A program made the position numbers and the translations under genes. The notes below the pieces were generated by a model, which searched no databases, was not told the origin of the DNA, and saw only the letters and a program-made list of their open reading frames with translations. From contig DASQNC010000025.1 of NCBI GenBank assembly GCA_035645145.1, forward strand, positions 124,001 to 188,000: a stretch of 64,000 nt of DNA, given 5' to 3'. Source of the DNA: Azospirillaceae bacterium (GTDB lineage: Bacteria > Pseudomonadota > Alphaproteobacteria > Azospirillales > Azospirillaceae). This document shows, one piece after another, positions 3,744 to 64,000 of the stretch. Position 1 is the first letter of the stretch, and each line of letters begins with the position of its first letter.

Positions 3744-5387
3744 TCAGCCCGCGGGTTCTCCGGCCGCATGAAATGCTGCAAGCGCCTCGGGCGTGTCCAG
3801 GTCCACCAGCGGGGCATCCCCGTCCACCGGAACCTCGCACACCAGATCCGCATGCGCGCCGATCAGGTGGCGCGCACCGACGTCGCCTTCGACCGCCGCC
3901 ATTTCCAGGAAGAACCGGCGGTCCCACAGCACGGGGTTCCCGCGCTTGCCCTCGACGGTCGGAACGCAGATCGCGCGGCCCTCGGTCGGGTTGTAAGCGG
4001 CGATCAGCCGGTTCAGCAGGTCCGGGCCGACTTTCGGCATGTCGCCCAGCTGCACGATCACGGCATCGGCCTCGGCGGGCACGCGGGCAAGTCCGGCACG
4101 CAGCGAGGAACTGAGGCCGGCGGCGAATTCGGGGTTGGGGACGAGGGTCACATCCCGGCCTGCCAAGGCGGAGGCCACGTCGTCGCCCTGATGCCCCGTC
4201 ACCACCACGACCGGCGCGGCCTGGGATCGCAGTGCGGCATCGACCGCATGGACGAGCATGGGCTGCCCCTCGACCTCGACCAGCAGCTTGTTCGGTCCGC
4301 CCATCCGCGTCGAACGGCCCGCGGCCAGGACCAGGGCGGCCACCCTGGGGGCTCCGGTATGGGCAGGCGCCGGTCCCGGCGACGCCTGGGCGCGGGGCAG
4401 GGGGCGGCTGGGGATCTCCGCCAGCAGGCCGCCCACGCCCATCCGCATGATGTCGGCCCGGGTGACCGGCACGTCGGCCATCAGCCGTTGCAGAACCCAG
4501 TCGAAACCGTTGAGCTTCGGCGAGCGGGCGCACCCCGGCAGCCCCAGCACCGGGACCTCGCCAAGGCGCGCCACCAGCAGCAGGTTCCCGGGATCCACCG
4601 GCATCCCGAAATGCTCGACCCGGCCACCGGCCTGCTCGATGCCGGCCGGCAGCACGTCGCGACGGTCGGCGATGGCCGATGCCCCGGCCACCAGGATCAG
4701 GCCGGCGCCCTCGTCCCGCAGCGCCTCGACGGCCGCGGCAACCTCCGCGGCCGTGTGCGCGGTCCGCCGGTCGGGCAGCAACGTACCCTCGACCGTGACC
4801 AAACGTTCGCGGGTGGCCTCCACGGTCTTGTCCAGCACACTGTCCTTCATGCCCGGCAGGCGTGTCTGGACAAGCCCGACCCGGCGCCCGCGGAACGGCC
4901 GAAGTGCGACCAGGGGACCACCCTCCGCCACCATCCGTTCGACCGCCTCCACCGCCTTGGACGGGGCGGCGAAGGGGATGATCTTGACGGTCGCCGCCAT
5001 CTGCCGCGCCTCCAGGGGCGCATAGGCCGGGAGCGTGGCGACGGTCACGGCCTCGTTCAACAGGTTCAGGCGGTCGAGCCGGTCCACATCGACCCACAGC
5101 AGGCCCCGCGCCGCAGCGAACAGGTTGACCCGGCCGGTGAAGGCCGCGCCCCGGCTCAAGCCGGGCCCGGCAATGGCGGCGGCAATCCGGTCGGCGGCCT
5201 CGTCCTCCGCGACATCGCCGTCCTCGAGCTTCGCCGCAACGACATCGGCGACGCCCGCCGTCCGCAGGGCGGCCACATCCGACGCGCTGAGCCGGCGGCC
5301 CTTCTTGAACGCAAGCCCGCCCAGCTTCAGGGAGTGGGCCAGGATCGCCCCTTCGGCCTCGTCCAGGGAGAGGGTTCCGAACCTCAT
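3744..5387 (-). CDS. molybdopterin-binding / MobA-like nucleotidyltransferase fusion
   Basis: A 547-aa cytosolic protein with two parts. Residues about 1-335 form a MoeA/MogA-like molybdopterin-binding domain. Residues about 347-547 are a MobA/MocA-type NTP transferase whose nucleotide-binding motif LAAGRSTRMGG is at 354-364. The pair fits molybdenum cofactor cytidylyltransferases (MocA-like) that make the MCD cofactor used by xanthine-oxidase/CO-dehydrogenase-type enzymes. It is the last gene of the cox operon, 7 bp after the xdhC C-terminal gene, consistent with a dedicated cofactor-maturation role. Length matches fusion proteins seen next to xdhC in alphaproteobacteria. The exact nucleotide (CTP or GTP) is inferred from the neighbourhood only. 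Confidence 0.85.
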   Translation of the reverse strand: MRFGTLSLDEAEGAILAHSLKLGGLAFKKGRRLSASDVAALRTAGVADVVAAKLEDGDVAEDEAADRIAAAIAGPGLSRGAAFTGRVNLFAAARGLLWVDVDRLDRLNLLNEAVTVATLPAYAPLEARQMAATVKIIPFAAPSKAVEAVERMVAEGGPLVALRPFRGRRVGLVQTRLPGMKDSVLDKTVEATRERLVTVEGTLLPDRRTAHTAAEVAAAVEALRDEGAGLILVAGASAIADRRDVLPAGIEQAGGRVEHFGMPVDPGNLLLVARLGEVPVLGLPGCARSPKLNGFDWVLQRLMADVPVTRADIMRMGVGGLLAEIPSRPLPRAQASPGPAPAHTGAPRVAALVLAAGRSTRMGGPNKLLVEVEGQPMLVHAVDAALRSQAAPVVVVTGHQGDDVASALAGRDVTLVPNPEFAAGLSSSLRAGLARVPAEADAVIVQLGDMPKVGPDLLNRLIAAYNPTEGRAICVPTVEGKRGNPVLWDRRFFLEMAAVEGDVGARHLIGAHADLVCEVPVDGDAPLVDLDTPEALAAFHAAGEPAG

Positions 5388-21144: not shown

Positions 21145-21224
<80 letters not shown>

Positions 21225-21255
21225 GCGTTCGACAAGGGAAAGCCTGAGTCAAAGC

Positions 21256-21549
21256 ATGCTTGTCCGGATCTACAAGCCGTCAAAGACCGCCCTGCAGTCG
21301 GGCTCGACCAAGTCGAAGCAGTGGATGCTTGAGTACGAGATCGAGACCCCGCGGCGGCCCGAGCCGCTCATGGGTTGGATCAGCTCCGGCGATACGCTGA
21401 ACCAGGTGAAGATGCACTTCCCGACGAAGGAAGAGGCCATCGCCTTCGCCGAAAAGAACGGCTGGACCTATACGGTCCAGGACGCAACCCCGCGGCGGAT
21501 CCGGCCCCGCAACTACGCGGACAATTTCCGTCCGGACCGCGTGCGCTGA
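21256..21549 (+). CDS. ETC complex I subunit, NDUFS4-like (18-kDa accessory subunit)
   Basis: A 97-aa protein matching the ETC complex I subunit family (PF04800): MLVRIYKPSKTALQSG at the start, then the WMLEYE, PLMGWISSGDTLNQ and FPTKEEAIAFAEKNGW blocks seen in mitochondrial NDUFS4 and in alphaproteobacterial complex I. It is an accessory subunit on the peripheral arm. The gene is away from any nuo operon, as is usual in alphaproteobacteria. It lies between tRNA-Pro (31 bp upstream) and tRNA-Arg (78 bp downstream) in the same direction; no good ribosome site is seen right before the ATG. Confidence 0.92.
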   Translation: MLVRIYKPSKTALQSGSTKSKQWMLEYEIETPRRPEPLMGWISSGDTLNQVKMHFPTKEEAIAFAEKNGWTYTVQDATPRRIRPRNYADNFRPDRVR

Positions 21550-21627
21550 TACAACATCCACGCAGCGCCGCGACACTGCGGAGTTACCAACGCGCCAGGG
21601 AAGGGGCTCACCTTCCCCCCCGATCAA

Positions 21628-21704
<77 letters not shown>

Positions 21705-22098
21705 TCGGCAAGAGGGATCGGCCGAGATCGGGGCCACAGGCGCCCACACACCCGCGGTCTCCGACTTCCAGCCCCCCGCTTCGCCAATGTCGGATTGTCG
21801 GCCCATTGGCAATATTGGCGGGCGGCGAAACCAAGCGCACCAAACGGCGCCGTATCGGGCGTCAGACCGCAATAATCTGGCACTCGACCGCCAACGGATT
21901 AGCCGGATTTTGCAGCCAATAGTACATTTTGCCAAATGCAATACATTTAAAACGCGTTAACAAAAGATGTGGATGCCTCAACTTTATTTACAATTCTGAA
22001 CAATTTCGGCCTTCAGGGAAAAAACTATTTCAGGGCAGGATTCTTCCGGCGGCCGTCCTCAACCCCCGGTGGCCGCAAGATCCGAAAGAGGCCCTCTT
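21705..22098. other. gene-free AT-richer gap after tRNA-Arg
   Basis: No convincing ORF in either strand. The first ~150 bp have normal GC; from about 21890 to 22020 the sequence is clearly AT-richer than the surroundings and contains runs such as ACATTTAAAACGCGTTAAC. It probably holds the promoter of the amine oxidase gene. An AAAGAGG ribosome site stands 8 nt before that start. The drop in GC right after a tRNA gene is typical of an insertion boundary, but no integrase is seen. Confidence 0.5.
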
Positions 22099-24201
22099 AT
22101 GGCAGGAATCAATAAATCCCTTTCCGTTCCGGTGCCTGGGCCCGGACCATCCGACAAAGGAGCCTGGGAGCCGCTGTGGCCTAACCCTGCGGACGTTCCC
22201 TACAACTACCACAACCTGCTCAAGCTCACCGCTGCCAGTGGCATCGCCAACGTTTCGGGCCGGGATGCCTCGAAGTTGCGCATCGGCATCATCGGAACGG
22301 GCTACGGCGGGCTGACCGCCGCGCGGGAACTCCTGCGAAGCGGATTCACCAACTTAACACTCTACGAGGCGGACAACCGCCTTTCCGGCCGCGGCTATCC
22401 GGTTCTCCCCGAGCCCGTCAAGGGCCGCACGCCGACGGGAAGCGCCATCACGCCCTTCGAATTGGGCGCAATGCGCATCCCCTTCTTCGAGTCCGCCGGA
22501 TCCACCAGCGGAAATAGCTGTATCGCCTTCTATGGGCGGGAATACGCCCTGCGGACCCAGAAATTCCCCGACCCGGGTTCGCAGGATATGACGACCGGAA
22601 TCTTCATGAACGAAGGTTACGGTCCGACCCCGGACCCCGAAAAATTCGTCGGCATGCTCCGCTGGAAGCCGACCCAGGAAAATCCGTATCCCCCGGACTC
22701 CAAGCTGAAGGAGGTCTACTCCAAGTGGGAAGCCTGGTCCTACAACGTCAAAATGTGGGTCAGCAAATCCTATGGGGTCTCATCCTCCTGGACGGATTTT
22801 TGGCACAAGATCGTCCAGGTATATGAGTTTCTCAATTTCCGTGATGTCGCCTTGGCGGCACCCAAAACCTATTACCGGAACGGCAAGGACCCAGATCCGA
22901 AATACCTGGATGCAAATAAGAACGGGGATTTCGGCGGCCTTGGTTTGACGATGGAACAGGCGGACCTGTTCTACACAATCGGTGCCGGCGATGGCAGTTG
23001 GGGCGCATTCTTCGATATAGCGGCGCTCTACCCGATGCGCACCCTTCTGTTCGGTTATGCCGACAACCATCAATTGCTTGGGTATGTCGGCAAAATTCCC
23101 CCGTTGGACGGCACACCGGACGCCGAGTTGCCGAAAGACAATGTCTTCTACGACAGCGCGAACAACCCTGTGAAAATGCCGTTATTCGGCGGGCTGTCGG
23201 CCGTTCCGGCAATGCATTTCTTCCTGCCCGTGCGCAGCGCCGTGTCGGGCGTCGACGGAACGTCGCTCTATACGAGGATGCTGAAGGATCGTGGAAGCTC
23301 GGGAGGGATCAAGCTCTATACCGGGTCAGCGGTTCAAAGCATCGACGTTTCCGGCACCGGCTATGAGGTCACCACGGGAACAGGCCGGACCAGCCAGCAC
23401 GACATCCTGATTTTCACGCCGCCGGGTTGGTCGCTGCAAATGAATATCGACCTGTCGCCGGCCTTCATGAAAAAGGTTTTCATCTCATCGGGCGGCAACG
23501 ACTTCTGGCCCGCCCTGACGAGTTGGAAGGGCATGAAAATGTCCCACAACATCACGTCGGCGAAGGTCTTTTTCAAACTCAAGCAGCGCTACTGGGAAGC
23601 CAGCAACATCCCCCAGGTCATTGTGACCGATACCTTCCTGCAGGATGTGTACGGCTACGCCATGGACGTCGATGCGAAAGGAACGAAGGTCAACGACCCT
23701 GGTGTTCTGCTGTGCTCCTACACCTGGGAGGACGACTCCAACAAGTCGCTGTCCAGCCACACATCGTCAACCGAGGACGATTTTGCGAAGAAATGTTTGG
23801 CGAAGCTGGATGAAATCCTTGTCGCCAGCGGTTACCCGGCCATGTCCGGCTTTGTCGACATGGATTATCAGCCGGTGGTCTGGCACTGGGAGGATCAGCC
23901 GCTGTATCGGAGCTGCGCAAAGCTCTATCGCGCCGGCAGCTTCGACTGGAATTACGCGCAGCTGACGTGGAACCAAAACCACGCAAAGGACCGCGGCATC
24001 TACTTCGCCGGGGAATTCGCTTCACTGGAAGGCGGCTGGATCGAGCCCGCGATGCGGGGCGCCTTGGACGCGGTCGTCCGCTTGATCCAAAACGTGACGC
24101 CCAAGACCGATTGGGCAAAGGTGTTCAACGACTACACGATGATCCAGAATTACGTGTCGATACCCGATTGGCGCCCGACACCGCCGCAGAACATGGGTTG
24201 A
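22099..24201 (+). CDS. flavin amine oxidase, L-amino-acid oxidase / Trp(Phe) 2-monooxygenase-like
   Basis: A 700-aa FAD enzyme. The dinucleotide motif GTGYGG is at 66-71 with the ribose-binding Glu at 90, an ELGAMRIP motif at 121-128 has the Arg126 that in phenylalanine oxidase and tryptophan 2-monooxygenase binds the substrate carboxylate, and the C-terminal FAD loop is FAGEFASLEGGWIEPAMRGA. An amino acid is thus the likely substrate, giving an oxo-acid or an amide. There is no signal peptide. Its length is near the 714-aa Pseudomonas P-501 phenylalanine oxidase, which is made as a proenzyme; the roughly 60 residues before the FAD motif could be comparable. Composition is AT-richer than its neighbours, so transfer is likely. 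Confidence 0.82.
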   Translation: MAGINKSLSVPVPGPGPSDKGAWEPLWPNPADVPYNYHNLLKLTAASGIANVSGRDASKLRIGIIGTGYGGLTAARELLRSGFTNLTLYEADNRLSGRGYPVLPEPVKGRTPTGSAITPFELGAMRIPFFESAGSTSGNSCIAFYGREYALRTQKFPDPGSQDMTTGIFMNEGYGPTPDPEKFVGMLRWKPTQENPYPPDSKLKEVYSKWEAWSYNVKMWVSKSYGVSSSWTDFWHKIVQVYEFLNFRDVALAAPKTYYRNGKDPDPKYLDANKNGDFGGLGLTMEQADLFYTIGAGDGSWGAFFDIAALYPMRTLLFGYADNHQLLGYVGKIPPLDGTPDAELPKDNVFYDSANNPVKMPLFGGLSAVPAMHFFLPVRSAVSGVDGTSLYTRMLKDRGSSGGIKLYTGSAVQSIDVSGTGYEVTTGTGRTSQHDILIFTPPGWSLQMNIDLSPAFMKKVFISSGGNDFWPALTSWKGMKMSHNITSAKVFFKLKQRYWEASNIPQVIVTDTFLQDVYGYAMDVDAKGTKVNDPGVLLCSYTWEDDSNKSLSSHTSSTEDDFAKKCLAKLDEILVASGYPAMSGFVDMDYQPVVWHWEDQPLYRSCAKLYRAGSFDWNYAQLTWNQNHAKDRGIYFAGEFASLEGGWIEPAMRGALDAVVRLIQNVTPKTDWAKVFNDYTMIQNYVSIPDWRPTPPQNMG

Positions 24202-24224
24202 TCCCGGTTAAAGCTGCGGCTTCG

Positions 24225-24248
24225 CCCCCGGACCTTGAGGTCCGGGGG
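24225..24248. terminator. bidirectional terminator between amine oxidase and chemoreceptor
   Basis: A perfect 10-bp GC stem (CCCCCGGACC at 24225-24234 with its complement at 24239-24248) around a TTGA loop lies between two convergent genes, 24 bp after one stop and 17 bp before the other. T tracts are weak on both sides. Confidence 0.7.
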
Positions 24249-24264
24249 CCTTCGACACGCAAAG

Positions 24265-25968
24265 TCAGGCTGCGTTGTCCGTGCGCAGTGCAGCCAGCAG
24301 TGCACCGACATCGCGCTTCAACTGTTCCGTCCGCTCCAGGACGGCTTTGGACCCATCAAGCAGGGTCCGGGCTTCTTCCCCGGTTGTCTCCACCGTTTGG
24401 CTGACAGCGGCGGTGTTCCGGGCCACGGTGGTTGCGCTCCGATCGATCTCCACGACATCGCCGGAGATGTCGCGGGTGACCTGGGTCTGTTCGCCGACCG
24501 CGGACGAGATCGTCCCCGCGGCATCGCTCACACGGCCGATCGTCTGGCCAATACCGCGCACCGCGCCGACGGCGCTGGTCACCGCCCCCTGCATCGCCGC
24601 AATCTGATGCCCGATGTCCTCGGTGGCCTTGGCCGTCTGGTTGGCAAGCGACTTGACCTCGTTCGCCACCACGGCGAAGCCCTTGCCGGCCTCGCCCGCA
24701 CGGGCGGCCTCGATCGTCGCGTTGAGGGCCAGCAGGTTGGTTTGGGCGGCGATGGCGCTGATGATTCCAACCACTTCGCTGATCCGCTTTGCGGCCTCGC
24801 TGAGCCCGGCAATGGTCGCGTTCGTACGGTCGGCTTCCTGCACGGCCTCGCGGGCAACGGTCAGGCTCTCGTTCGATTGGACCCCAACCGCGGCGATGGA
24901 GCGGGTGAGCTGCTCGATGGACCCCGCAACTCTCGTGATGCGGGCGGACGTCTCGCTTGAAACAGCCGCGGCTTCGCGCGATTGCTCGTCCGCATTGCCG
25001 AGCCGAACAACGATGGCGTCGGCCAACCTGGTCATGTCGGCGGAGGCCTTGCCGAGGTTCTGGACCAGATCCTCGACCGTCAGTTCGATCTTGCGGGAAA
25101 TGCTCTGCACCAGCTCGCGCTGTTTCGCCTTGGTTTCCTGGTCACGTTCCTGCTGCTCGGACCTGAGCGTGTCCATCGCACGGGCGTTCTCCCGGAAAAC
25201 CTCCAGCGTCCTCGCCATCAAACCGATCTCGTCGCGGCGGTCGGTACCGGTGACGATCGTGTCGAGACGGCCCTGCGCCAGCGCGCTCATGGCATCCACA
25301 GTCCGCCGGATCCCGCTGGCGATATGGCGGCCAATCACGAAGCTGGCGACCAGTGCCAGCAGCAGCGACACGATTGCAACGAGACCGATCGATGAACGGA
25401 CCTCGTCCGACACGGCATGGGCGTGCGCGCTCTCCCGGGTCGCACGTGCAATCGTCAATTCACGCAACTTGTCGAGCGGCTTCCGGAGTGCGTCGTATTT
25501 GGCCGCAGCCGTGGTGATCAGCGGTGTGGCCAGCGTGGGATTCTTCAGCGCCATATCCGCCGCAGCCTTGGCGCTGGCGACATAGGACTCCATCAGGCCC
25601 GTCAACGCCTGCCGGATTTCCCGCTCCTCCGCCATGTCGCTCTGCCGGGCGGCGATCGCGTGCGCCAGTTCACCCATGCGGCCAAGCCGGCGGTCGATCC
25701 CCGCCTGGATCTTCGCAATCTCGTCGTCGGCGCGGCCAAGCCGCTTCCAAACGACGATTGAAAGCATGTCGGACTGCGTGTCAGCGACGGATTGCAGCAA
25801 CTCGTCGCTATTGATGACGGCGGTAACACCGTTGTCGACGATGTTCGCCGTGGCGGCGGACTGTTCGTTCAGCCCGACGTGGACGGTTCCCCAAATGGCC
25901 GCCAGGGCGATCGCAAACAGCGCCGGAGCGATCAGGACTTTGGTGCGGATCGGTAGTCGGTTCAGCAT
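24265..25968 (-). CDS. methyl-accepting chemotaxis protein
   Basis: A 567-aa transmembrane chemoreceptor. TM1 is near residues 9-30, a periplasmic helical (4HB-like) sensor region covers about 31-188, TM2 about 190-210, then a HAMP segment ([20 protein letters not shown]) and the cytoplasmic signalling domain. The hairpin tip reads [45 protein letters not shown], the CheA/CheW contact site. No CheB/R-tethering pentapeptide is seen at the C terminus. It lies 93 bp downstream of the small Cache protein gene on the same strand. Confidence 0.93.
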
Positions 25969-26061: not shown

Positions 26062-26523
26062 TCAGCGGCAGGCCGTTGCCATCACGCGCGGCTTCTCCAC
26101 CCAGGTCGAGAAGCAGTGATACTCGTACTCTTTTTCGTTCGTGTAATGGGGCCAGTAGTTCAGCGTGTAGTCACCGCCCTTGTCGGCCGCCTCGGTGAAT
26201 TCCTTGACGATGAACCGGCCGCGCAGGTCCTGCATGGTGGCAAAATCAACACCGGACAGGTCGGGATACTTGTTGTGCGCGGCCATCTTGTTATCGACCC
26301 AGATCATCATTCCGGGCTGGGCGCCACCGAAGGGGGTCCCCCTGTCCTTCAGCGAAGCGGCGGCGGTGTCCGTTCCCTTTTCCTTGGTCAGGGCGACGAA
26401 ATCCGCCAGCACCTTACGGACCTGTTCATCGGTGCCGAATTCGGTACCTGCCTGCGCTACCCCAGCGAGGATCGTGAAACCTAGAGCCAATGCAGCGAAA
26501 GCCGTACCGGACGCGAGCCTCAT
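26062..26523 (-). CDS. small secreted single-Cache-domain protein
   Basis: A 153-aa protein with a signal peptide (hydrophobic stretch to AGVAQAG, about residue 25) and one Cache-like sensor domain making up the rest: VRKVLADFVALTKEKG, the PGMMIWVDNKMAAHN strand pair, DLRGRFIVKEF and TLNYWPHYTNEKEYEYHCFSTWV. Cache domains normally sit outside membrane receptors; here the domain is free in the periplasm, without transmembrane or output part. Gene order places it directly upstream of a chemoreceptor, so it could act as a soluble ligand-binding adaptor (inference). The ATG at 26523 follows a GGGGGAT site. Confidence 0.78.
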   Translation of the reverse strand: MRLASGTAFAALALGFTILAGVAQAGTEFGTDEQVRKVLADFVALTKEKGTDTAAASLKDRGTPFGGAQPGMMIWVDNKMAAHNKYPDLSGVDFATMQDLRGRFIVKEFTEAADKGGDYTLNYWPHYTNEKEYEYHCFSTWVEKPRVMATACR

Positions 26524-26827
26524 TGAAAAATCCCCCGATGTCACATGATTGGTGATGTACGCCCCGATCGCGGCTGGAGCCTCCGCCACGGTCCGACGAT
26601 CAAACCGCTCAACGATCTACCTAAAGTATTTAGAGATCGTTACGTCGCCTACCACGAATTTGCCCTGTCCTGCCCGAAACGCGCAGGGGTCGAGTCAAAG
26701 CGGCGGCTTGCCAGCCGAGATTTCCTATGAAACCGGCCGCATCCAGGAGGTATTCGCTGCCATTGGCGGGCGTTGTTCCAGCCCAACCGGGTTCCGCGTC
26801 ATTGGGTAAATGGGCACGGGGAGGGCG
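26524..26827. other. gene-free region upstream of the Cache gene with an inverted repeat
   Basis: No gene is supported. At 26611-26641 there is a near-perfect hairpin or dyad: AACGATCT and CTAAA on the left, TTTAG and AGATCGTT on the right, with a 3-nt centre and a two-base bulge. It lies about 90 bp upstream of the Cache gene start, where an operator would be expected. The rest of the region shows nothing notable. Confidence 0.5.
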
Positions 26828-27235
26828 TTACCCCGCGCCGTCTTGTCGACCGTAGAGCTTGTCCGGAGTCGTCTCGACCGCGGCGATCACCTGAAGATTG
26901 CCGTCGCGCCAAGCACGGAAGAAGCAATTGCGGCGCCCGGTATGACAGGCGACACCGTGCTGGTCGACCAGCAGCAGAAGGGTGTCGCCGTCACAATCGA
27001 CCCGCAACTCCACCAGATGCTGCACTTGGCCGGATGTTTCGCCCTTGCGCCAAAGAGCCTGGCGGGACCGGGACCAGTAGCAGACCCGCCCGGTGTCCAG
27101 CGTCTCACGAACGGCGTCGGCATTCATCCACGCCATCATCAGGACTTCGCCCGTGCGCGCGTCCTGGGCGATGGCGGGGATCAACCCGTCCCGATTGAAC
27201 CGGATCTCGGCCAGCAGGGTGTCGACGGCGGTCAT
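26828..27235 (-). CDS. hisI: phosphoribosyl-AMP cyclohydrolase
   Basis: A 135-aa monofunctional HisI that opens the purine ring of PR-AMP in histidine synthesis. The metal-binding [11 protein letters not shown] motif and the [16 protein letters not shown] substrate motif are intact; there is no HisE domain, as usual in alphaproteobacteria. The ATG at 27235 overlaps the stop of the upstream PLP-enzyme gene (ATGA), so the two are co-translated although they serve different amino-acid pathways. Confidence 0.95.
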
Positions 27236-37544: not shown

Positions 37545-37619
37545 TGGCTCCGGGGGTCGGATTCGAACCGACGACCGATCGGTTAACAGCCGATTGCTCT
37601 ACCGCTGAGCTACCCCGGA
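37545..37619 (-). tRNA. tRNA-Asn (anticodon GTT), copy 1
   Basis: On the minus strand the acceptor TCCGGGG/CCCCGGA, D stem GCTC/GAGC, anticodon stem ATCGG/CCGAT with loop CTGTTAA (anticodon GTT), T stem GTCGG/CCGAC and encoded CCA all form. The sequence is identical to copy 2, and the flanks are nearly so. Confidence 0.97.
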
Positions 37620-37797
37620 ACTTGACCCATTCGACCACAGGTCAACCCACTCAATCCTTGCGCACGCGGCACAAGAAGGCGCGTCCGCCACCTCAGAACC
37701 CGATGGCGGCAGGTCACCCGCGACGTGCCGGCACAAAGCCTCGCCCCGTTGTGGAGTGCCTGATCGCAGGAGTGGATGGACCGTAGACCTCAGTGAA

Positions 37798-37872
37798 TGG
37801 CTCCGGGGGTCGGATTCGAACCGACGACCGATCGGTTAACAGCCGATTGCTCTACCGCTGAGCTACCCCGGA
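37798..37872 (-). tRNA. tRNA-Asn (anticodon GTT), copy 2
   Basis: Identical 75-nt tRNA-Asn on the minus strand, 253 bp from copy 1. Being farther from the helix of plus-strand genes and upstream of copy 1, it may share a transcript with copy 1 and tRNA-Cys. CCA is encoded. Confidence 0.97.
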
Positions 37873-37938
37873 ACTTGGCCCATTCGCGTGCGGTACGATC
37901 CAGCAACTGCTGGATGTCTCACCGGACCGCACTGGCAG

Positions 37939-38012
37939 TGGAGGCACGGGGCGGAATCGAACCGCCGTACGCGGATTTGCAGTCCGCTGCATGACCACTC
38001 TGCCACCGCGCC
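37939..38012 (-). tRNA. tRNA-Cys (anticodon GCA)
   Basis: Minus strand: acceptor GGCGCGG/CCGTGCC (one G-T), anticodon stem GCGGA/TCCGC with loop CTGCAAA (anticodon GCA), T stem and TTCGATT loop, encoded CCA. It is first of three tRNA genes in the same direction. Confidence 0.96.
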
Positions 38013-62523: not shown

Positions 62524-63195
62524 TCAAGCCACCCGCGACGGTCCGGCGGCTCGTTCATTCATCCGTGCGAGCAGCACTTGTGCGGCCTTGACGGTTTCGG
62601 AAGACGCCTTTTCCGGTGTTCCACTGTCGAACGGCGGCTGCGGGGCATACTCGAATGCGAGTTGGATCGTTTTGGCTTCGTCTTCACCGCGGATCTCCTC
62701 AATGACGGTGAGGGCAAAGTCGATCCCGGCGGTGACGCCGCCGCCCGTGATCCGGTTGCGGTCCTTCACGACCCGCTCGGCCACGGGTGTGGCTCCGAAC
62801 AGGGGGAGTTTGCCCCGGTACGCCCAGTGCGCACCTGCCTTGTAGCCCGCCATCAGGCCCGCGGCGCCGAGGAGCAGAGAGCCGGTGCAAACACTTGTCA
62901 CGTACTTGGCTTGTTCCCCCTGGCGTTTCAGCCAGCCGAGAACTTCCGGATCCTGCATAATCAGGATCTGTCCGCCGCCGCCCGGCACGCAGAGCATGTC
63001 GAGATCCGGGCAGGTTTCAAATGTCGCCGTCGGGACAATGGCGAAGCCGGCGTCCGTCGGCACAGGATCCAAGGTCTTCCAGACGAAATACACCTCCGTA
63101 TCGCTCATCTGGGACAGGAACTGGGCGGGGCCCGTCATGTCCAACTGGGTGACATGAGGGAAGAGCAGGAAGCCGATCCGGAACGACGTCGCCAC
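62524..63195 (-). CDS. DJ-1/PfpI family protein, isonitrile hydratase-like
   Basis: A 223-aa protein of the DJ-1/PfpI fold. The nucleophile Cys is in YVTSVCTGSLLLGAAGLMAGY with Glu-type residue in FPHVTQLDMTGPAQFLSQM; ILITGGGVTAGIDFAL is the dimer segment. This set is found in isonitrile hydratase (InhA) and in GlxA-linked PfpI proteins. No HTH. It is divergent from a GlxA-like regulator with a 98-bp gap, so likely regulated by it. Confidence 0.87.
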   Translation of the reverse strand: MATSFRIGFLLFPHVTQLDMTGPAQFLSQMSDTEVYFVWKTLDPVPTDAGFAIVPTATFETCPDLDMLCVPGGGGQILIMQDPEVLGWLKRQGEQAKYVTSVCTGSLLLGAAGLMAGYKAGAHWAYRGKLPLFGATPVAERVVKDRNRITGGGVTAGIDFALTVIEEIRGEDEAKTIQLAFEYAPQPPFDSGTPEKASSETVKAAQVLLARMNERAAGPSRVA

Positions 63196-63293
63196 GACGG
63201 TGATCTCCGAGGGTCACGTAACGCCCTTGTGTACTTGCGGCGGCCCGTGGCAGAAATGACAACGACACGCGCTTTCCTGCCAAACAATGTGCA

Positions 63294-64000
63294 ATGCGGA
63301 CCATCGTCCTTCTCGCCTATGAGGGGGCGCAGTTGCTCGACATCACGGGGCCGGCTTCCGTGTTCGCGGAAGCCGCCGAGTACGTGGATCCGGCGCCTCA
63401 TGATGTCGTGGTGGCTTCACGCGATGGTGGAGCCGTGCGCACCAGCAGCGGGGTGGCGCTGTGGACCGTTCGGCTGGCCGACGTTCCATGCACCAAGATT
63501 GATACGGTCCTGGTACCGGGGGCCTTGCGACCCGGATTGCAGTCTCTTGTTCGTGATGTGGTGCAGCGGGATTGGGTGTTGTCGGCCGCGGCGCACGCAC
63601 GGCGCGTCGGCTCGGTCTGTTCGGGCGCTTTCGTGCTGGCCGCGTGGGGGATGCTCGATGGGCGACGCGTGGCGACCCATTGGCAAGGGACCGATGAACT
63701 GGCCCGCCGTTACCCGACCGTAACCGTCGAACGCGACGCGCTCTTCGTGGAGGACGGCCCCATCTGGACGTCGGCGGGCGTGTCGACGGGCATCGACATG
63801 GCGCTCGCCCTGGTCGAGCGCGATCTTGGGCGGAGGGTCGCTGCGAGCGTGGCCCGGCGCCTCGTCCTGCATGCCCGTAGGCCGGGGCACCAGTCGCAGT
63901 TCTCGGCCTTGCTGGAAGCCCAGGCCGGGCCGTATGCGGGACTTGTTGAGTGGATGGGCGAGAACCTGGCCGCCGACCTTTCCGTGGATGCCCTCGCGGC
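63294..64000 (+). CDS. GlxA/FtrA-like AraC family regulator (partial, runs off the window)
   Basis: The open frame from ATG 63294 runs to the window end without stop, over 235 codons. Residues about 1-190 are a DJ-1/PfpI-like domain: MRTIVLLAYEGAQLLDITGPASVF, and RVGSVCSGAFVLAAWGMLDGRRVATHW with a Cys at the nucleophile place. The segment LVEWMGENLAADLSVDALA at the end is the first helix of an AraC DNA-binding domain, which must continue outside. Divergent from the PfpI gene; target probably that gene. Confidence 0.85.
   Translation, partial: MRTIVLLAYEGAQLLDITGPASVFAEAAEYVDPAPHDVVVASRDGGAVRTSSGVALWTVRLADVPCTKIDTVLVPGALRPGLQSLVRDVVQRDWVLSAAAHARRVGSVCSGAFVLAAWGMLDGRRVATHWQGTDELARRYPTVTVERDALFVEDGPIWTSAGVSTGIDMALALVERDLGRRVAASVARRLVLHARRPGHQSQFSALLEAQAGPYAGLVEWMGENLAADLSVDALA

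Follow-up and report, generated by a model that had tools for sequence, protein, structure and literature searches.

What does the flavoenzyme gene behind the tRNA-Arg gene of this Azospirillaceae genome encode, and how did the gene come to lie there? We addressed this question in a stretch of 64,000 nucleotides, hereafter the window. The initial annotation had described a 700-residue flavoenzyme gene of lower GC than its neighbours after tRNA-Arg, and this description was borne out. The gene runs from the ATG at 22099 to the stop at 24201 (700 codons, no internal stop) and starts 394 bp past the end of tRNA-Arg(TCT). With 58.3% GC, it is the lowest of 41 window ORFs, which were selected by a crude script; the next-lowest ORF has 60.4%. 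We read it, with moderate confidence, as a gene that was gained horizontally, stands alone, lies in a variable block and encodes an FAD-dependent L-amino-acid oxidase/2-monooxygenase (Table 1). It is a known kind of enzyme with a real gain event.

Table 1. Features of the oxidase locus (positions are those of the window)
Feature	Position	Strand	Basis
tRNA-Pro (TGG), conserved neighbour	21148..21224	+	tRNA call, relatives
NDUS4-family gene (PF04800), conserved neighbour	21253..21549	+	Pfam
tRNA-Arg (TCT), conserved left edge of variable block	21628..21704	+	tRNA call, relatives
AT-richer gap, tRNA-Arg to oxidase gene	21705..22098		no gene found
Flavin L-amino-acid oxidase/monooxygenase-type gene	22099..24201	+	700 aa, Pfam, profile, fold model
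Codons of FAD-binding Rossmann start, about residues 61–99, GxGxxG at 66–71	22279..22395	+	Pfam NAD_binding_8 match, residues 64–100
ELGAMRIP, residues 121–128; Arg126 = Arg98 of tryptophan 2-monooxygenase	22459..22482	+	translation, alignment
GDGSWGAF, residues 297–304; Trp301 and Phe304 align with pocket residues	22987..23010	+	26-row alignment
Hairpin between convergent stop codons	24224..24249		stem search and folding
Methyl-accepting chemotaxis protein, within variable block	24265..25968	-	Pfam
Cache-domain protein, within variable block	26062..26589	-	Pfam
hisI-type gene (PF01502), right edge of variable block	26828..27229	-	Pfam

The mean GC of the other 40 window ORFs is about 67.4%, some 9.1 points above that of the oxidase gene, and their mean GC3 is 0.848, compared to 0.763 for the oxidase gene. 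The codon adaptation value of the gene, 0.583, is not the window minimum. As a control, the oxidase protein was recoded with the codon usage of the window, which gave 61.8% GC. About 5.6 of the 9.1 points belong to the amino-acid make-up and 3.4 points to codon choice; the latter shortfall equals about 1.6 standard deviations, and a larger deviation is seen in one of 39 other ORFs. The compositional break proposed earlier is thus real in that the gene has the lowest GC of the window, but most of it reflects amino-acid composition, and codon choice is mildly odd. Because the recoding control explains most of the GC deficit, composition was rejected as strong evidence of transfer. Elsewhere in the window, the ORF at 62827–63723 (+) has the largest codon-related GC shortfall (-6.7 points, 40 ORFs tested); it could be a misassigned frame or a gene of foreign origin.

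The gene-free, AT-rich gap noted after tRNA-Arg is present. It is 394 bp in length and has 55.3% GC; its second part (21881–22098) has 47.2%. The promoter scan returned one site, which is on the opposite strand, with 0.9 expected by chance. The strong hairpin noted after the oxidase gene exists as well, with an 11-bp stem and a 4-base loop (folding z of the stretch, -2.7), but it is an ordinary feature: perfect stems of at least 10 bp occur at six places in the window, of which this is one, it sits between the convergent stops 24201 and 24265, no T-run follows it on the + strand, and it is absent from the output of the terminator scan.

Gain of the gene from outside, as the initial annotation had proposed, is well supported by its distribution. 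The same gene at the same place across the family would have spoken against it; none of the 58 other family genomes contains an oxidase homologue at E ≤ 1e-6, while all 24 relatives read have NDUS4 between tRNA-Pro and tRNA-Arg. NDUS4 itself is present in 37 other genomes. On this basis, the gene was very probably gained by transfer. Comparison of genomes at the tRNA-Arg locus, a check suggested with the initial annotation, showed this conserved tRNA group together with a frame that has no oxidase gene. The frame rests on one relative of eight, G009, in which hisI and metC follow tRNA-Arg; other small ORFs take up about 1.5 kb in between there, compared to 5.1 kb in the window with the oxidase, chemotaxis receptor and Cache genes. 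The other seven stretches, one of them from the congener G001, did not show hisI and metC within the 15 kb covered. The Cache-domain protein (175 aa) ranks second from the bottom in GC among the 41 ORFs, and its gene was found in none of 58 other family genomes at E ≤ 1e-10; for the chemotaxis gene, neither its own genome nor that of the congener contains a match above 40% identity other than the gene itself. The variable unit is therefore a block rather than a single gene.

Outside the family, matches are few. In the class sample, two of 384 other genomes match at E ≤ 1e-25, both of the same genus; in the phylum sample, one of 397 matches at E ≤ 1e-20. The own genome contains one full oxidase match and one short Rossmann-type match. 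The nearest relative comes from another family and shares 54% identity. In the genus of the two class-sample matches, which includes G197, each of three genomes has a match: a full gene in one, a gene cut at the contig end in another and the 3′ part only (221-aa frame) in the third. At L088, about 4032–4697 (-), G294 retains the 3′ part only and its congener G197 has the full copy, which adjoins LutB-type genes. A first contig scan with the single protein as query returned 14 stretches, none of which was confirmed. Among the named contigs, 80 of 153 relatives were kept; the best is the cyanobacterium Phormidium pseudopriestleyi (41%), and most are Pseudomonas (31–34%). In a tree of 31 sequences, which carries a long-branch warning, the window protein and G197 are grouped at 100/100 and the cyanobacterial row joins at 92/82 (midpoint root). 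The plasmid search gave distant relatives alone (about 23.5% identity), mostly from Agrobacterium and Rhizobium. The subfamily is spread over Pseudomonadota, Cyanobacteriota, Acidobacteriota and one Bacteroidota bin; this speaks for transfer within the subfamily, with the caution that bins call for. That the gene is old in the family and was lost in all other lineages would agree with its mildly odd codon usage, as after long residence. This explanation is unlikely, as it needs loss in all 58 other sampled genomes, one congener included, and the nearest relatives belong to another family and a cyanobacterium.

How the gene arrived is a separate matter. The initial annotation suggested integration at tRNA-Arg, that is, arrival on an element inserted site-specifically at the tRNA 3′ end. 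The oxidase gene does lie directly after the tRNA gene, and the Cache gene of the same block is also missing from all 58 family genomes. However, the five integrase (PF00589) matches of the genome include none on contig C25, the 25-base 3′ end of the tRNA is single-copy in the genome with up to three mismatches allowed, and the flanks 21551–22099 and 24151–25000 have no 10-mer in common. Nor did the oxidase match any phage or viral contig, the viral scan using exact peptide patterns alone; phage origin was rejected accordingly. Site-specific integration was rejected too, and we consider it very improbable. A tRNA-adjacent position combined with low GC can therefore be misleading: distribution shows the gain to be real, while the compositional and tRNA arguments for it are weak. 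Elsewhere in the window, two tRNA-Asn genes and one tRNA-Cys gene are clustered at 37545–38012 (-).

The assignment of the protein to the amino-acid oxidase/monooxygenase class held. Residues 70–663 match PF01593 (flavin amine oxidase) with 93.7 bits (cut-off 19.8), and the best match of the single protein in a PDB sequence search is tryptophan 2-monooxygenase (TMO; E 8.2e-25). A 26-sequence profile ranked TMO first among PDB entries (195 bits), above reconstructed tetrapod L-amino acid oxidases (144) and L-AAO/MOG (134); snake-venom oxidases (up to 95), L-glutamate oxidase (85) and P-501 L-phenylalanine oxidase (66) were lower. Of the two types named in the initial annotation, the tryptophan-monooxygenase type is therefore the closest, and P-501 phenylalanine oxidase was rejected as closest relative because its match is far weaker. 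We built a fold model from 24 sequences (mean pLDDT 70.6, pTM 0.76), with pLDDT under 50 at residues 102–128 and low confidence at residues 1–15. Foldseek placed 4iv9 first and 3we0 second. In VIA-align, 3we0 (Z 22.9, rmsd 5.6, 482 aligned) and 4iv9 (Z 22.0, rmsd 6.1, 496 aligned) tied, and 2yr4 reached 19.6 (rmsd 5.2, 493 aligned). At an rmsd of 5 to 6 Å, the model supports the fold, not the details. Among the 25 NCBIfam families listed, none is above its own curated cut-off. Membership of the oxidase class is nearly certain; the enzyme kind is ordinary, and the subfamily has no solved or curated member.

ELGAMRIP, the motif taken earlier as pointing to an amino-acid substrate, is present, and its Arg126 aligns with the substrate-holding Arg98 of TMO. 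Likewise, Lys489, Tyr541, Trp543, Trp597 and Trp647 correspond to TMO Lys365, Tyr413, Trp415, Trp466 and Trp519, as counted by hand on the PDB and profile alignments; we take Lys365 to be near the flavin and Trp466 to be part of the aromatic cage. These six residues and Phe304 are invariant in 26 of 26 rows, and GDGSWGAF is unchanged in all 26 aligned sequences. All residues of the L-amino acid oxidase/monooxygenase group (Arg, Tyr, Lys near the flavin, aromatic cage) are thus present in the protein.

In the pocket, Trp301 aligns with MOG Trp235 and TMO Phe244, Phe304 with MOG Asp238 and TMO Val247, Tyr320 with MOG Cys254 and TMO Tyr263, and Gly646 with MOG Ala515 and TMO Gly518, the residue before Trp519. 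Aligned alone to 3we0, the pocket stretch gave a weak match (E 1.5). The pocket alignment is supported by the superposed structures of PMC5832979, which give the same TMO counterparts (Phe244, Val247 and Gly518) for the L-AAO/MOG pocket residues. In that study, Asp238 of L-AAO/MOG is key to specificity, and P-501 phenylalanine oxidase has Leu319 at the specificity position. The substrate-selecting position is thus Phe304 here, Asp in the lysine enzyme and Val or Leu in the Trp and Phe enzymes. The acid that marks lysine or arginine selection is absent, with Phe in 26 of 26 rows; the TMO pair Phe244 and Val247 is absent too, being replaced by Trp301 and Phe304. Because Phe304 replaces the lysine-selecting Asp, the substrate is probably neutral, rather than Lys or Arg. 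Judged from the sequence, Gly646 would widen the pocket and Trp301 would narrow it.

A plausible reaction can be outlined from these residues. Arg126 and Tyr541 would hold the α-carboxylate and α-amino group of a neutral L-amino acid, FAD, with Lys489 close by, would oxidise the α-C–H bond, and O2 would turn the reduced flavin over. In the less certain step, the main product would be an amide, formed with loss of CO2 as in TMO, rather than hydrogen peroxide and a free oxo acid.

Gene neighbours of the relatives bear on this step. At each of the 71 named Pseudomonas loci, the oxidase gene is followed on its own strand by a C-N hydrolase gene, 66–1667 bp further downstream (median 177); at two of the 71, the script gave a short oxidase frame, and by our reading the longest gap is at one of these two. 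One example is L086 5497–7571 (-), where the oxidase is followed by the C-N hydrolase; a further ORF with no Pfam match occurs in six of 18 compared loci, and some Pseudomonas loci have an asparaginase gene beyond the pair. The Pseudomonas partner matches nitrilase-superfamily models, none over the cut-off, and either amidase or nitrilase activity is possible. This neighbour suggests amide-forming chemistry in Pseudomonas. At the Acinetobacter locus, the C-N hydrolase gene is on the opposite strand, and eight of nine non-Pseudomonas named loci have no such gene in the DNA covered, two of them with little downstream DNA. No C-N hydrolase gene adjoins the window oxidase gene. A search of its genome for the C-N hydrolase family gave four matches, the nearest about 129 kb away; the three found by blast are only 29–33% identical to the Pseudomonas partner.

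The main rival is a true oxidase of the same class, which would scavenge nitrogen or harm competitors by releasing a 2-oxo acid, ammonia and hydrogen peroxide. Sequence cannot fix the oxidase/monooxygenase ratio, the reconstructed tetrapod oxidases rank second in the profile search, and the window gene stands alone, with no amidase-type partner adjoining. Against these points, the nearest solved relative by sequence is a monooxygenase, Tyr320 is as in TMO, and the C-N hydrolase partner occurs in every named Pseudomonas locus. Tyr at position 320 is not a family rule, with 24 Phe and two Tyr in 26 rows. Change of Cys254 of L-AAO/MOG to Ile is reported to abolish monooxygenase activity; for TMO, PMC4699246 describes oxidase activity only in the mutated enzyme. 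A true oxidase is possible, at a clearly lower probability. Taking the Pseudomonas partner together with Tyr320, we judge that amide formation is somewhat favoured over pure oxidase chemistry, and we lean to a product that would be mainly amide. The indole-3-acetamide-like amide suggested by the initial annotation fits the gene neighbours of the relatives and stands as a prediction.

More tentatively, the protein may represent a lineage of L-amino acid 2-monooxygenases that form amides, carry the Trp301/Phe304/Gly646 pocket and GDGSWGAF and occur in several phyla. With its C-N hydrolase, the Pseudomonas enzyme would form a two-step route from amino acid to acid; here the oxidase is alone, and the amide is possibly the end product. 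If the product is the amide of an aromatic amino acid, one gained gene would give the lineage an auxin-like or phenylacetate-like output. The Pseudomonas pair is a clear candidate pathway that has no curated name in the libraries searched, and no description of it was found in the literature searched, whose reach left out most subscription journals.

Among known systems, L-phenylalanine oxidase of Pseudomonas sp. P-501 (2yr4) is similar in size (721 residues compared to 700), fold family (Z 19.6) and neutral specificity residue; its sequence match is far weaker, 66 bits compared to 195 for TMO. L-AAO/MOG of Pseudomonas sp. AIU 813 (3we0) shares the fold (Z 22.9), the substrate-holding Arg and Tyr and the pocket-wall Trp, with Trp301 matching the narrow-pocket Trp235 of this lysine enzyme. 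Different from the window protein, it has Asp238, Cys254 and Ala515 in place of Phe304, Tyr320 and Gly646. The DavB/DavA system (PMC5054628) pairs a flavin monooxygenase with an amide hydrolase (lysine 2-monooxygenase and 5-aminovaleramidase), a precedent that is similar to the pairing of oxidase and C-N hydrolase in the Pseudomonas relatives; it is a lysine pathway, whereas the window gene lacks both a partner and the lysine-selecting acid. Compared to TMO of the IaaM type (4iv9, 557 residues), the window protein has about 20% identity, Trp301 in place of Phe244, the GDGSWGAF signature and no adjoining amide hydrolase gene. Nevertheless, TMO is the best PDB sequence match and has the same fold, the same active-site Arg, Lys, Tyr and Trp, a neutral specificity residue, Gly preceding the last cage Trp and Tyr at the Cys254 position.
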